From IMG/VR virus record IMGVR_UViG_3300044624_000337, positions 1-22,538 of that record: a DNA stretch of 22,538 nucleotides, one strand, 5' to 3'. This DNA comes from a virus. The translations under genes and the position numbers were made by a program. Each line of letters opens with the position of its first letter. Positions within the stretch are counted from its first letter, which is position 1. Shown piece after piece: positions 2,462 to 19,737 of this stretch. Under the pieces are notes generated by a model. The model did no database searches. It worked only from the letters and a program-made list of their open reading frames with translations, and was not told the DNA's origin.

Positions 2462-2875
2462 TTACTCGGATTTATTTCCCTCACCAAAGTCAATTACTTC
2501 AAAAACTCTTGTCTGAATTTTCTTAGTACCTTCGGCATTTGTTAGGATAATTGAATTCTTAAACTTCTGCCAATTGATGACAAATGATGAATCTAATATA
2601 CCACCATTTTCTTCCTTAACCAATTCGTTAAGAGCATTTATAGTGTAAAGTGAATTAGATTCTTTCTTTCTATGTATTAGGATTGTGTTTTCTAACGGAA
2701 CTTCAGGTTGAAATGCCGTATCTATATTATATGTAACAAATAATTCTTCTAAATTAGATTTATTTTGTAATATATAAATATAGTTATAAACTATATGATA
2801 AGTTTCTCTTATTTGTTGTAGAGTATTTTGTAACTCCTCTTTTGTTGTAAATGTACAAAGTAACTGTGTCTTCAT
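2462..2875 (-). CDS. Conserved phage protein of unknown function
   Basis: A 137-aa acidic soluble protein that I cannot assign. Residues 1-60 look like an alpha/beta domain (MKTQLLCTFTTKEELQ, then IVYNYIYILQNK and ELFVTYNID). Residues 75-115 contain ILIHRKKESNSLYTINALN followed by ENGGILDSSFVINWQKF, which from memory recurs in uncharacterised proteins of T4-like phages. There is no signal peptide, metal-binding or nucleotide-binding motif. It is the only gene here with a clear Shine-Dalgarno sequence (GAGGAA, 3 nt before the ATG on the minus strand), which supports this start and sets its translation apart from its neighbours. A TATTTATA box lies 26 nt upstream. It probably leads the unit running through the ADP-ribosyltransferase-like gene and the endolysin. 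Confidence 0.75.
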   Translation of the reverse strand: MKTQLLCTFTTKEELQNTLQQIRETYHIVYNYIYILQNKSNLEELFVTYNIDTAFQPEVPLENTILIHRKKESNSLYTINALNELVKEENGGILDSSFVINWQKFKNSIILTNAEGTKKIQTRVFEVIDFGEGNKSE

Positions 2876-5900: not shown

Positions 5901-7064
5901 ATCTCTACTCACATATATTGGTGCAGTAATCTTTGGATGATTAGGGTCTTTCTCTAAAGCTCCCATCATACCAACTACCTTTGCTCCAACTAAATCTTTT
6001 TGTGTTGCTTTCAATTTATCAGCAGGTACTTCGGTTTGTAAAGTTTTGATACCTTTTTGTTGTAGCATTTCTCTAAATACAGGTTCAGTATCCACTTCAC
6101 CACTTGCATCAGCTTCCATTCCAGCTGCTCTACTACCCGGCGATGCATTTCCTTTGAATTGTGGCATCTCATCTCTTGGTATTCCTAAGTTATCATCACA
6201 ATATAAGTTTGTACCTGGCACAGTTACATCACATAAGTTAATGTTTGGTGCTGGTTCTCCTTTAGCCTTTGCATCAGCTACTTGTTGTGCTACATTTTGT
6301 ATATCCGTATTGAATTTTTCTAATTGTGCAGGCTCTACTCCATCTGGAATATCAGAACCACCAGCAAATGTTTCCGGGTCAGCTTGTGGCATTTCCTTTG
6401 CAACATCTTTACTATCTATTGGATTAAATTCGTTTGTGTCTGATTTTGGTTCTTGTGCCTTTTCAGTTTCTTTATCAGCTTCCGCATCTTTTGCTAATTG
6501 AGCTTGAACTTCTTTTTCTTTATCCATTCGGGCAGCCATTGCTGGGTCTGCTTTTGGGTCAAACATAGCTTGTGCAGCTTTTGCTTTATCTTCACCACCT
6601 GCGGCTGGGTCTTCCCCACCTTTATCTTTACCTGCATCTGGTTTTTTTGGTTGTCCCTCACCTCCCAAATCCTGATTTATTTTATCTCTTTCAGGACTAC
6701 CATCAGTTGGTAGCATTTTTTCAGCTGCTACTCTACCAGGATGTTCAGCTGGTAATCTTAATAAGTTACCAACAATACCATCGGCATCTTCACCTTTGGC
6801 ATTTTTATATTTTATTGATTTATTAAGAATTGGATTTGCAAATTGCTTACTATCAGCTTCTTCTATATCATCCGGAGTTTTTCCTTTTTCAGTTAATAGG
6901 TTTTCTACCAATGGACCTTTGATGTGAGATAGTCCCATTTCTGAAAGTACAATACCCAACTCCTTTAAGTGGATTGGGTTCTTTGGGTTTGGCATTCCAT
7001 CATCACAACGGTATGCCCATTCAGAAAGTATTTCGTTTATTAATTCAGATAAATTCATATTCAT
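2940..7064 (-). CDS. Giant multidomain phage protein with ParB-like domain, probably virion-associated
   Basis: A 1374-aa mosaic protein. Residues 1-58 form a helical N-terminal module (LINEILSEWAYR, then DGMPNPKNPIHLKELG), of a type I recall at the N-termini of uncharacterised marine phage proteins; I-N-E and L-S-E sites at 9-15 resemble prohead protease targets. Residues 120-260 are a low-complexity Lys/Ala/Asp/Glu linker. Residues about 329-440 look like a ParB/sulfiredoxin-fold domain, with DGYVIDGHHRWAAIVAHN at 388-405. Residues 550-600 are hydrophobic and Gly/Ala-rich and could insert in a membrane. The C-terminal half has the motifs NFNENMSNEAVKILE, FGGTKEDLARC and SSGGGENAADTATLTLD, which look like a conserved unnamed domain. 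Its ATG shares a base with the stop of the nuclease gene (TAATG), implying translational coupling. Candidate roles are an ejected internal protein or a large structural protein; neither is proven. Confidence 0.75.
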   Translation of the reverse strand: MNMNLSELINEILSEWAYRCDDGMPNPKNPIHLKELGIVLSEMGLSHIKGPLVENLLTEKGKTPDDIEEADSKQFANPILNKSIKYKNAKGEDADGIVGNLLRLPAEHPGRVAAEKMLPTDGSPERDKINQDLGGEGQPKKPDAGKDKGGEDPAAGGEDKAKAAQAMFDPKADPAMAARMDKEKEVQAQLAKDAEADKETEKAQEPKSDTNEFNPIDSKDVAKEMPQADPETFAGGSDIPDGVEPAQLEKFNTDIQNVAQQVADAKAKGEPAPNINLCDVTVPGTNLYCDDNLGIPRDEMPQFKGNASPGSRAAGMEADASGEVDTEPVFREMLQQKGIKTLQTEVPADKLKATQKDLVGAKVVGMMGALEKDPNHPKITAPIYVSRDGYVIDGHHRWAAIVAHNAANPDKQIPMKTTVLDQDIKDAIPMANKFAEDMGIAPKKADANKETPSTPTSVGKNGLTDKVKKKIENWTKEEKAFFEKNEGAPGSETRRSLGQALKDKAAGALKAIKKGAKHEVHIFKDATKGVSKFFAGQDVSEEEVKAIKSVGIKIATTAIFAAGMGGLAAGAAGFAKLVAIELVPHVVAETVLLGAGRAAVFADANGEAEDDANMIKFTELIAKGIEEMEITPEMMEDMVDSYNEKKESGEMDNVETPIEPNVKSEHLHLVDELMLEMIYGFIDEVKPKNDDPDVKYTPIGKNGKPGKPTTIKYSSAIKYDTKHPAYIAAMKLKDKGKKSQTGTTPSAKKLGAGDFRPTADIPSEKPTKKAKAEPKDSTESIAKQKQVTKELYGKGDGPLLQGSTTSQQALDNGYVEGAAWVAPGNAGSNFNENMSNEAVKILEKHPDLDEETLGRIIYERTKNTKLGLQQKDVSIGSENKIAIPADIENKEIYRNCVVVARSAKSKADRAVMGADRATQEGKFGKKRTKQVFGGTKEDLARCEQTINKANKTFIYDSETDSVYEIPKDVMLGWVKSSGGGENAADTATLTLDEKGNVIYDGWSDKKTLKDIQGNSTLVDDYTKSEERLSNLVSTGQIDEKTANKAKLLILKDKQAIKDIEAGLKDISIQQSTYFLSMKPKDFDRLGDDAATTPETKKHFSNFKKSVDDVLSGKAKSGKKTNAIREGILPRNTNESDEQYLARFNKLADKKPKLSNGNYFKVMSSVGKAGMLSGDDRKVIERTANSEKANYKKDGKKLPAGLDTDLALSELRKKSLGIQTDTFKNLNKLTGKSSTGKPKKLGDLLAFDDAKGLLHLDKIDTPKNDKDFTQILRRNTQLAMEGIAVSPKTIKECLGVANTKELEDSFELSFVERYTYDKDNVRVTGKVVYVYAINKDGKKEEIAQKVYRPKQGPTAPTANTVTWSAGMQKCFDSKK

Positions 7065-7666
7065 TAAAATTTGTGGTCTTCATCTTCACATATCATTTCT
7101 AACTCATCCCAATGAAATTTTGGTTTTTGATTTAGAAATACAAAACATCTCCATTTGTTACTTTTTTCAAAATAGATATGTTTTTGTAAGTATGATGGAA
7201 TTGCTGCTCCAGTTGGTACTCTTTTTACAGGTGTATCAAAGAATGTTTTTATTAGTACAGTTATATTTTCAGTATCATCCCATTTACGGATTTGTTCTTC
7301 TAACAATCTCCACTCACCTCTATTAAGGTATTGGTCTTGCATTATACAATTTAAGTATGAGAATGTTTGTTTTAGGTTTACCATATTATCAGAGAATGTT
7401 GCAGCTGGTGCCCCATGTCCTTTATCGTATATATTTTTAGCATAATCTTCAGCATCTGATGTTTTAACATTTGGTTCTTTGTAGAAATCCATAGCTCCTC
7501 TATTCACATTTGTAGGTCTATTAGTTGAACGATACTTAATCACAAGGGGTTGCTCCAATGATTGGGAGTAAAGAACTTCAAATACTTCGTTTTTAATTCT
7601 AACATCTTGTCCAAACGAAATTAACGAAAGGAGTAGGAAACCGATAAGGATACTGATTTTTTTCAT
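7064..7666 (-). CDS. Exported NucA/Serratia-type DNA/RNA non-specific endonuclease
   Basis: A 200-aa protein with a classic signal peptide: KK at 2-3, hydrophobic core ISILIGFLLLSLI, and end SFGQ at 17-20, typical of flavobacterial secreted proteins. There is no lipobox Cys. The mature part carries the beta-beta-alpha-metal nuclease signature: DKGH (81-84, the family's DRGH with Lys for Arg; H84 would be the general base), N106 in YLNCIMQ, then LNRGEWRLLEEQIR (114-127) with the expected Asn115, Trp119, Glu123 and Arg127. It should cleave DNA and RNA with a divalent metal in the periplasm or outside the cell. At 200 aa it is slightly short for the family. A TATTTATA box lies 25 nt upstream, and the stop overlaps the start of the 1374-aa gene. 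Exclusion of superinfecting phage DNA or scavenging of nucleic acid are inferred roles. Confidence 0.85.
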   Translation of the reverse strand: MKKISILIGFLLLSLISFGQDVRIKNEVFEVLYSQSLEQPLVIKYRSTNRPTNVNRGAMDFYKEPNVKTSDAEDYAKNIYDKGHGAPAATFSDNMVNLKQTFSYLNCIMQDQYLNRGEWRLLEEQIRKWDDTENITVLIKTFFDTPVKRVPTGAAIPSYLQKHIYFEKSNKWRCFVFLNQKPKFHWDELEMICEDEDHKF

Positions 7667-7691: not shown

Positions 7692-7699
7692 TATAAATA
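7692..7699 (-). promoter_or_regulatory. TATTTATA box upstream of the exported nuclease gene
   Basis: The coding strand reads CATATTTATACTATATACAA, 25 nt before the ATG. It occupies the 39-nt gap between the polymerase stop and the nuclease start, suggesting that the nuclease and the coupled 1374-aa gene have their own late promoter. Confidence 0.45.
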
Positions 7700-7705
7700 T
7701 GATTG

Positions 7706-8989
7706 TTATAATTTTCCGTAATCTAATCCCCAACTAGCCTTAACAGGAAACCCACTTCCTTCAATTATTTCCTTTAATCCTCTAATAATCCCCTTATCTA
7801 TATCAGTCGGAACATCAAAAAGGAACGAATCGTATGTATAAAGGCAAAAGCGGATTCCACTCCCATCTATATAATCCAATACCCTTCTCATCACATCCAC
7901 ATTCATTTCAGTTTCCACCGCTTGTAGAAGATAGTTAAATACCTTTTGTGCATTGGGTTGTTCTATCCACTCCAATGGAATATGACGGTGTGGTGTTTGT
8001 AGGTATCCATTCCGTTGTGTTTCAATCCATAAGTTATCAATGTAATCAGCCACCTTATCGAAGTATGGTATTTGGCGGAACTCATCATCGATACCACCAT
8101 ACAACAATTGGAATGTTATCCCCTTCGATTCATCTATACTACAACCATATTGGTCAGCTAACCATTGGTGCATATTCCCATCCGGCACATCGAATCCAAT
8201 CAACTTAGCAATCAGACGGGGGTGATATGCGTTATAATCCATTTGAAGGAATATCCCATCCGATACGAAACATTCTCTACTACCATCGGTTTTGTTTAGG
8301 GCGGCATAGTTCACACCACCATGTCTATTGGATGGTCTACCTGTCACCGTAAATGGATTGTATTCCGTAAACACTAAGTTATCGCGTGAAAGCTGTTTGG
8401 AAGCTTGAGGCCATCTATCAATAAATTTTTTCCCATCGACCCGAATCCCATATCGTTCAATATCTGAAAGGGTTGGTAAGAATATATCGTTATACCAATT
8501 ATAAGTTTTATATTTTAGAGGAATACATTTTACGAATTGTGGTTCTATTGCTTCCGCAAGTTTAAGAATGGGAATGGATTGAATGATGTCCTCTTTGTAA
8601 CCCCTATGTAAAAGGGGAGCTACTAAGTGTTGTAGTGGTTGAGAATAATCTATTGTTTTGCCATGCTTTAAGAAATAAGCAGTATCAACATCATTCAATC
8701 CCTCCCTTACATTTGTAAAAGATTGTAGTAGCTTTTTCTTTTGAAATACCCATTTCTCACCGGTAGTATTCAACACACCTTCTATTTCCTCATTAGAGAG
8801 TGATACAGCGTCTGTGTGTTGTTGTGGTATGATGTACTTGTCCGATTGGGTACTAACGAATAGGAACGATATATGAGTGTTTTGCGGATGCTTCTCATTA
8901 TCTACCCACAATGGATACCAAATAGATGCTTCCGTTTCCAGTAATCTCTTTAATTCGTTTAATTCTATAATAGACTCTATAATTCTCAT
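7706..8989 (-). CDS. Minimal family-A DNA polymerase with degenerate exonuclease domain and no evident thumb
   Basis: At 427 aa this is far shorter than the roughly 600-aa Klenow-type core. The polymerase motifs are nevertheless clear: TGRPSN (216-221); RECF (238-241); motif A LQMDYNAYHPRLIAKL with D251; O-helix motif B KGITFQLLYGG with K289, F293 and Y297 in exact K-x3-F-x3-Y spacing; and motif C YTYDSFLFD with D387 (the usual His before Asp is Tyr). The position matching Klenow R754 is Ile. Residues 20-140 look like a remnant 3'-5' exonuclease domain: D30-x-E32 fits Exo I, but the Exo II Asn/Asp are absent. Only about 30 residues separate GIRVD (181-185) from TGRPSN, leaving no room for a standard thumb. 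It seems more GC-rich than its neighbours and lies downstream of a host-type promoter. Family assignment is confident; in vivo role unknown. Confidence 0.85.
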   Translation of the reverse strand: MRIIESIIELNELKRLLETEASIWYPLWVDNEKHPQNTHISFLFVSTQSDKYIIPQQHTDAVSLSNEEIEGVLNTTGEKWVFQKKKLLQSFTNVREGLNDVDTAYFLKHGKTIDYSQPLQHLVAPLLHRGYKEDIIQSIPILKLAEAIEPQFVKCIPLKYKTYNWYNDIFLPTLSDIERYGIRVDGKKFIDRWPQASKQLSRDNLVFTEYNPFTVTGRPSNRHGGVNYAALNKTDGSRECFVSDGIFLQMDYNAYHPRLIAKLIGFDVPDGNMHQWLADQYGCSIDESKGITFQLLYGGIDDEFRQIPYFDKVADYIDNLWIETQRNGYLQTPHRHIPLEWIEQPNAQKVFNYLLQAVETEMNVDVMRRVLDYIDGSGIRFCLYTYDSFLFDVPTDIDKGIIRGLKEIIEGSGFPVKASWGLDYGKL

Positions 8990-9026: not shown

Positions 9027-9425
9027 TTATTTGTCAAAAATATCGGAGATATCAACAACCCATAATTTTGGGTCATGTCCGTAGCGAACTAAACCGGATA
9101 AACGAGTGTTTCCGGCAACTAAATCATAATCAGTATCACTAAATTTTACAACTATTGGATGTTCAACCAATCCATCTTTTATGTATTGTAATACGAATTT
9201 CTTTTTTGTAGGATGTAATCCATTAAAATCTAAATCTACATTTCCCAAAATATCTTTAATTTGGGAATAGTTTACAATGTATCCAGCTTTACCTCTCTTA
9301 ATCCATGCCAATCTACCCATTTCAACAAATTCCGGATAACGCTGTGCTTCTTCCCATTCACTATCAAAGTTTGGATGAGTGTATCTGATTGTACTTTCGT
9401 TTAATAATGTTTTTAATAATATCAT
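9027..9425 (-). CDS. Small ParB-like (ParB/sulfiredoxin fold) protein
   Basis: A 132-aa protein whose C-terminal half holds a ParB/Srx-type core: the strand HPIVVKFSDTDYDLVAGN followed by TRLSGLVRYG (107-116), where G-N-T-R-L-x-G-L matches the ParB box that binds nucleotide in this fold. Such domains occur in partition proteins, in nucleases and in free-standing phage proteins; with no helix-turn-helix domain, partition is unlikely. The N-terminus MILLKTLLNESTI contains L-N-E|S, a possible prohead protease cleavage site. The gene starts 16 nt after the upstream gene and has no Shine-Dalgarno sequence. Its stop codon abuts the tandem octamer in the promoter region of the polymerase. A nuclease or DNA-modifying role is possible but unproven. 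Confidence 0.7.
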   Translation of the reverse strand: MILLKTLLNESTIRYTHPNFDSEWEEAQRYPEFVEMGRLAWIKRGKAGYIVNYSQIKDILGNVDLDFNGLHPTKKKFVLQYIKDGLVEHPIVVKFSDTDYDLVAGNTRLSGLVRYGHDPKLWVVDISDIFDK

Positions 9426-18649: not shown

Positions 18650-18657
18650 TATAAATA
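18650..18657 (-). promoter_or_regulatory. TATTTATA box upstream of the small gene preceding the tape measure
   Basis: The coding strand reads AATATTTATACAATATAAAG, 19 nt before the ATG and directly after an intrinsic terminator. The terminator-promoter arrangement is the best context support for this motif being a promoter. Confidence 0.5.
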
Positions 18658-19729: not shown

Positions 19730-19737
19730 TATAAATA
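19730..19737 (-). promoter_or_regulatory. TATTTATA box upstream of the gp26-like gene
   Basis: The coding strand reads ATGTATTTATATATACAAAC, 26 nt before the ATG, in the 109-nt gap that also contains the tail tube terminator just upstream. Confidence 0.5.

Follow-up and report, generated by a model that had tools for sequence, protein, structure and literature searches.

A thumbless miniature family-A DNA polymerase of the divPolA1 family beside the tail genes of a T4-like phage

The divPolA1 proteins were described from 14 genomes, including that of Immutovirus, and according to the main text of that description they combine a truncated thumb and an intact palm with an inactive exonuclease domain whose catalytic aspartates are replaced (Yutin et al. 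2024, Virol J 21:200, PMC11348598). The same text has divPolA1 occurring alongside a regular family A, B or C polymerase, with replication genes downstream (PMC11348598). In the literature, we found the term only in this paper and its preprint. A second point of reference is PolA of phage Tt72, in which the equivalent of Klenow E710 (Glu389) is described as the residue that keeps ribonucleotides out and contributes to holding the ternary complex; serine naturally occupies its E883 position (PMC9324360).

The window analysed here is the virus record IMGVR_UViG_3300044624_000337, positions 1 to 22,538 (22,538 bases). It comes from the tail module of a T4-like myovirus, and its major genes all lie on the minus strand. 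Pfam and PHROG matches identify a tail sheath and tube, a baseplate hub, a tape-measure-like protein, a gp53-like wedge and a large hub-like protein, together with two small proteins, a mini-polymerase, a non-specific endonuclease, a 1,374-aa protein, a 137-aa protein and an endolysin (Table 1).

Table 1. Features of the mini-polymerase locus, in window coordinates
Feature	Position	Strand	Basis
divPolA1 mini DNA polymerase, 427 aa	7706..8989	-	PHROG, AF2, structure matches, hhalign, 197-member alignment
Exonuclease-like domain, residues 1-160, apparently without catalytic acid set	8510..8989	-	AF2 model aligned to Pol I over residues 1-427; alignment columns
Thumb stub, residues 186-215, two short helices	8345..8434	-	AF2 model and alignment
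Palm and trimmed fingers, residues 216-427	7709..8344	-	hhalign to E. coli Pol I
D251, motif A metal ligand (Klenow D705)	8237..8239	-	hhalign and alignment
H256, steric-gate position (Klenow E710)	8222..8224	-	hhalign and alignment
Motif B, K289 to Y297	8099..8125	-	hhalign and alignment
D387, motif C metal ligand (Klenow D882)	7829..7831	-	hhalign and alignment
Late-promoter-like TATTTATA between polymerase and endonuclease	7692..7699	-	Upstream of endonuclease in 66/66 relatives
Late-promoter-like TATTTATA, probable (inferred) start of operon ending with polymerase	18650..18657	-	Motif map
Further TATTTATA sites in intergenic gaps upstream of structural genes	19730-19737, 2902-2909, 2454-2461, 802-809	coding strand	
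Companion gene, 137 aa, Immutovirus gp002 homolog	2462..2875	-	Synteny with polymerase in all clades
Non-specific endonuclease, directly downstream of polymerase in window clade	7064..7666	-	PF01223, E=1e-19; 66 loci

Family membership and coexistence with a replicase

The 427-aa open reading frame is confirmed as a real, conserved family-A polymerase. It matches PHROG 17 'DNA polymerase' (E=1.7e-14); Pfam DNA_pol_A stays below its cut-off (15.1 vs 34.3 bits, E=0.012), and sequence matches in the PDB are weak (Taq, E=0.004). A tblastn search with the window polymerase finds relatives in 99 viral contigs, with 66-93% identity among the matches listed, while relatives near the Immutovirus protein occur in >300 viral contigs and relatives near the Microcystis phage Mel-JY01 protein in ~109. 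Homology to Immutovirus gp001 covers 87% of the query at 27% identity (tblastn, E=3e-38). Only six of 50,697 phage records hold a relative over at least 80% of its length: four Immutovirus, Mel-JY01 and the 484-kb LR756508. The cellular genomes searched yielded one matching contig, itself phage-like and within a MAG, and a host gene was rejected on this ground. In an alignment of 197 non-identical members (median pairwise identity 28%), D251, D387, K289, F293, Y297, R218, K349, Q356, Y384, Y386, H34 and H256 are invariant, and a dN/dS of ~0.17 within the window clade rules out decay or a pseudogene. The polymerase belongs to divPolA1, a family of miniature family-A DNA polymerases found in large, T4-like aquatic phages in addition to a normal replicase. 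With several hundred contigs in IMG/VR, the family is common, and whatever it does is probably important to many T4-like phages.

A full-size polymerase is also encoded in 25 of 30 large relative records (Immutovirus counted twice), namely PolB in 17 and a PolA of ~780 aa in 8. The five other contigs continue for only 3 to 17 kb past the mini-polymerase, and elsewhere the replicase lies at 23-37 kb. PolB is present in three of ten further records, the other seven being contigs of 25-53 kb. Among the close relatives, 10 long window-clade contigs encode PolB; the window record stops too early to reveal a replicase. Coexisting full-size PolB or PolA rules out the mini-polymerase as the replicase, in agreement with the preliminary description, which had proposed an extra polymerase with a special job other than genome replication. 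That description had named as contrary evidence a phage family in which this size is standard and this enzyme is the only, replicative polymerase; the size is indeed standard in this phage group, but the enzyme is not the sole polymerase. PolC/DnaE was seen among the large records in LR756508 only. In this record (W01), which also encodes the mini-polymerase, pieces of PolB occupy two frames (1,022 and 625 aa) and a 575-aa frame is DnaE-like. In one Mel-clade contig (G024:C1 53555-55532), PolB occupies two open frames (610 and 306 aa) and is possibly split.

Domain architecture and active site

The AlphaFold2 model of the mini-polymerase is confident (pLDDT 93.5, pTM 0.90) and matches Klenow (E ~1e-18) and Bst Pol I (Z 27.3 over 405 residues), with the model aligned from residue 1. 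Its thumb is truly missing, cut to a stub: Glu178 and Thr216 are 38 residues apart (~21-41 across the 197 relatives and ~21 in the Mel-JY01 clade), with two short helices between them (186-192, 194-199), compared with an equivalent spacing of 125 residues for E. coli Pol I (positions E218 and G344-R345 of A2, the full-length PolA of the Immutovirus clade). An exonuclease-like domain, palm and fingers account for the whole chain, so the thumb has been lost rather than moved elsewhere in the protein. The preliminary description had reported this absence, and no other segment of the model supplies a thumb; its placement of the reading frame and of GIRVD (181-185), TGRPSN (216-221), D251, K289/F293/Y297 and D387 is likewise correct. 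The fingers are trimmed as well, D251 and K289 being 38 residues apart vs 53, a feature that it had overlooked.

Profile alignment to E. coli Pol I (hhalign) pairs D251 with D705, K289/F293/Y297 with K758/F762/Y766 and D387 with D882. It also places Ile285 at R754 and Tyr386 at H881, both as stated earlier (Ile at the R754 position, YD for the HD of motif C), together with Ser388 at E883 and His256 at E710; for R841 it finds no partner in the mini-polymerase. Within the exonuclease-like domain, H34 is joined by the near-invariant columns H58, K85, D100 and P140. Position 30 is Asn in 126 and Asp in 62 of the 197 members. The earlier claim that the D-x-E of Exo I is kept holds for the window clade, which retains D30-x-D/E32, but not for the other clades, which mostly have Asn-x-Asn (Asn30/Asn32), and the identity of D30 as the Exo I aspartate is uncertain without superposed coordinates. 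No Exo II acid is seen, in line with the reported lack of Exo II.

The invariance of the active site strongly suggests polymerase activity, but catalysis may be weak or altered because the equivalents of E710, R754 and R841 are replaced. Taken with the loss of the thumb, these replacements could also fit a homolog without catalytic activity that serves a structural or regulatory function, a reading we regard as highly improbable: 197 members sharing ~28% identity all keep both metal-binding aspartates and the O-helix K/F/Y, a pattern unexpected for a dead enzyme. In family-A polymerases, the thumb normally grips the product duplex, and its loss would lower processivity. A right-hand polymerase that keeps its active site without a thumb provides a test of what the thumb is for and, if active, would be a very small family-A framework.

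The steric-gate position in motif A (Klenow E710) is His in 197/197 members, another point passed over in the preliminary description. Glu is retained there by A2 and by divPolA2. The main text of the divPolA1 paper, supplements aside, contains neither 'steric gate' nor 'ribonucleotide' (PMC11348598). Since the residue at this position blocks rNTPs in other family-A enzymes (PMC9324360), and full-length PolA of the same phages and divPolA2 both keep the Glu, His256 might admit rNTPs and the enzyme might make primers, short transcripts or mixed strands. We consider such a ribonucleotide-using polymerase unlikely: the His side chain, bulky in its own right, could still serve as a gate, Phe293 is retained as in DNA polymerases, and DnaG-type primases occur in the Immutovirus clade, G001, G004, G025 and LR756508. 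The presence of these primases in several relatives also weakens a role as primase substitute; no DnaG-type primase was detected in G003 and some other relatives. Relaxed sugar selection is nevertheless the main alternative worth a bench test, and the invariant His makes for a sharp, cheap experiment.

Gene neighbourhood and a probable late-promoter motif

In a 188-kb relative (G003), the gene order runs sheath, tube, tape measure, gp53, hub, mini-polymerase, endonuclease, and continues with a homolog of the 1,374-aa protein, the companion, endolysin, SSB, RecA, 5' exonuclease, DnaB, NrdA and PolB. In most loci of three clades, SSB, RecA, 5' exonuclease and helicase lie downstream, in the relatives just beyond the position of the window edge, where the preliminary description had missed them. 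Its placement of the polymerase among late tail genes is therefore corrected in part: the site is the junction of a tail module and a replication/recombination module, and the tail-side assignment agrees with the distribution of the motif TATTTATA. The endonuclease, an Endonuclease_NS-type nuclease that follows the polymerase in nearly all window-clade loci, has an N-terminus (MKKISILIGFLLLSLISFGQD) resembling a secretion signal. A small gene on the other side (9027-9425, minus strand) has a weak ParB-like match and lies upstream of the polymerase in only 5 window-clade relatives.

Against a background of 1.5% per 60 bases, TATTTATA occurs within 60-70 bases upstream of the endonuclease in 66/66 loci and of gp036 in 40/41; it precedes the companion in 46/55 loci of the window clade and 65/71 of the Immutovirus clade. 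It is almost never found upstream of the mini-polymerase (0/70, 1/71 and 1/78) and never upstream of RecA or helicase. Because TATAAATA within the window alone barely exceeds chance (9 vs 5.1), the argument for the motif depends on its conservation from locus to locus. TATTTATA is conserved in three phage clades, resembles a T4-type late promoter and is probably one. Its presence upstream of the endonuclease, and near-absence upstream of the mini-polymerase, suggests that the polymerase is the last gene of a late tail operon. Such a position at the end of a tail/baseplate operon, read with the late-promoter map, would also suit an enzyme that is packaged with the tail or injected and repairs ends at the start of infection; we hold this to be quite improbable, no virion proteomics turned up in the papers searched, and the site borders replication genes as well.

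The 137-aa companion follows the polymerase in all three clades: in 55/55 window-clade loci with room for it, and in 71 and 72 loci of the others. Conversely, the polymerase is present in 55 of 80 companion loci, and no locus with >7 kb of upstream sequence lacks it. The companion occurs in exactly the same six phage records as the polymerase; this perfect co-occurrence may only reflect one phage clade, because the records with SSB (18) and gp53 (10) include the same six. Between clades, the companion is 34-49% identical and more conserved than the polymerase. These linkages, syntenic wherever testable, would fit a two-part polymerase in which the companion provides a thumb or clamp in trans and makes the enzyme processive, an arrangement that we find very doubtful. 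The AF2 model of the companion is confident (pLDDT 90.7), but its fold shows no resemblance to a thumb or clamp in Foldseek (no match at E<=0.001) or VIA (best Z 6.2 over 63 residues), and synteny of the whole block may account for the linkage.

Proposed role and comparison with described polymerases

The reading that we favor, at roughly even chances, is an active, exonuclease-deficient, low-processivity DNA polymerase, expressed late, that fills gaps or is coupled to recombination beside a PolB or PolA replicase. With palm and trimmed fingers intact, the exonuclease catalytic set apparently lost and the thumb a stub, the protein would synthesize DNA with low processivity and without proofreading. 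It would be made late, as the final gene of the tail/baseplate operon, and would fill short gaps or extend recombination or Okazaki intermediates before packaging. It would probably do so with the help of the downstream-encoded SSB, RecA-like recombinase and 5'-3' exonuclease, leaving genome copying to PolB or full-length PolA. Two points count against gap filling. Late co-transcription with tail genes would suit other late jobs equally, and the downstream replication genes, which lack the late motif, may be expressed at another time than the polymerase. A broader alternative, which we judge rather unlikely, takes divPolA1 as a family-A lineage in which the gate Glu became an invariant His, the thumb was lost and use became late, for rNTP incorporation or mixed strands and possibly with the companion as a thumb in trans.

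A thumbless second polymerase is already in print as divPolA1, and only details are added here. These are many additional members, the invariant His, a map of late-promoter-like sites and the companion, part of which may already stand in the supplements or figures of PMC11348598; apparently new are the gate His and the placement of the gene as the last of a seemingly late tail operon. As in the main text of that paper, the window protein is a homolog of Immutovirus gp001 with a truncated thumb, an intact palm and apparently no full exonuclease site, additional to a regular polymerase (in close relatives) and with replication genes downstream (in relatives, outside the window). Unlike the divPolA1 described there, the window clade has the endonuclease and the 1,374-aa gene between the polymerase and the replication genes, and keeps D30-x-D/E32. 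The divPolA2 protein (AUR84708 of MG592441) is likewise a supernumerary PolA-like protein of small size that has no normal thumb and coexists with a regular PolB, but by the same main text it has an unrelated N-terminal globular domain and no exonuclease-like domain (PMC11348598); its neighbourhood is variable, its motif A keeps Glu, and its profile similarity to the mini-polymerase is negligible. The large fragment of bacterial DNA polymerase I (Klenow, Bst, Taq) shares the fold and motifs A, B and C, whereas the mini-polymerase is ~150 residues shorter, with the thumb missing, the fingers trimmed and E710/R754/R841 replaced. In phage Tt72 PolA the motif C Asp is followed by a Ser, as it is here by S388, but that enzyme differs in its 703 aa, complete thumb, active exonuclease and Glu389 at the gate (PMC9324360). 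A complete thumb and a Glu at the steric gate are canonical PolA traits, and the mini-polymerase has replaced the one with a stub and the other with His.
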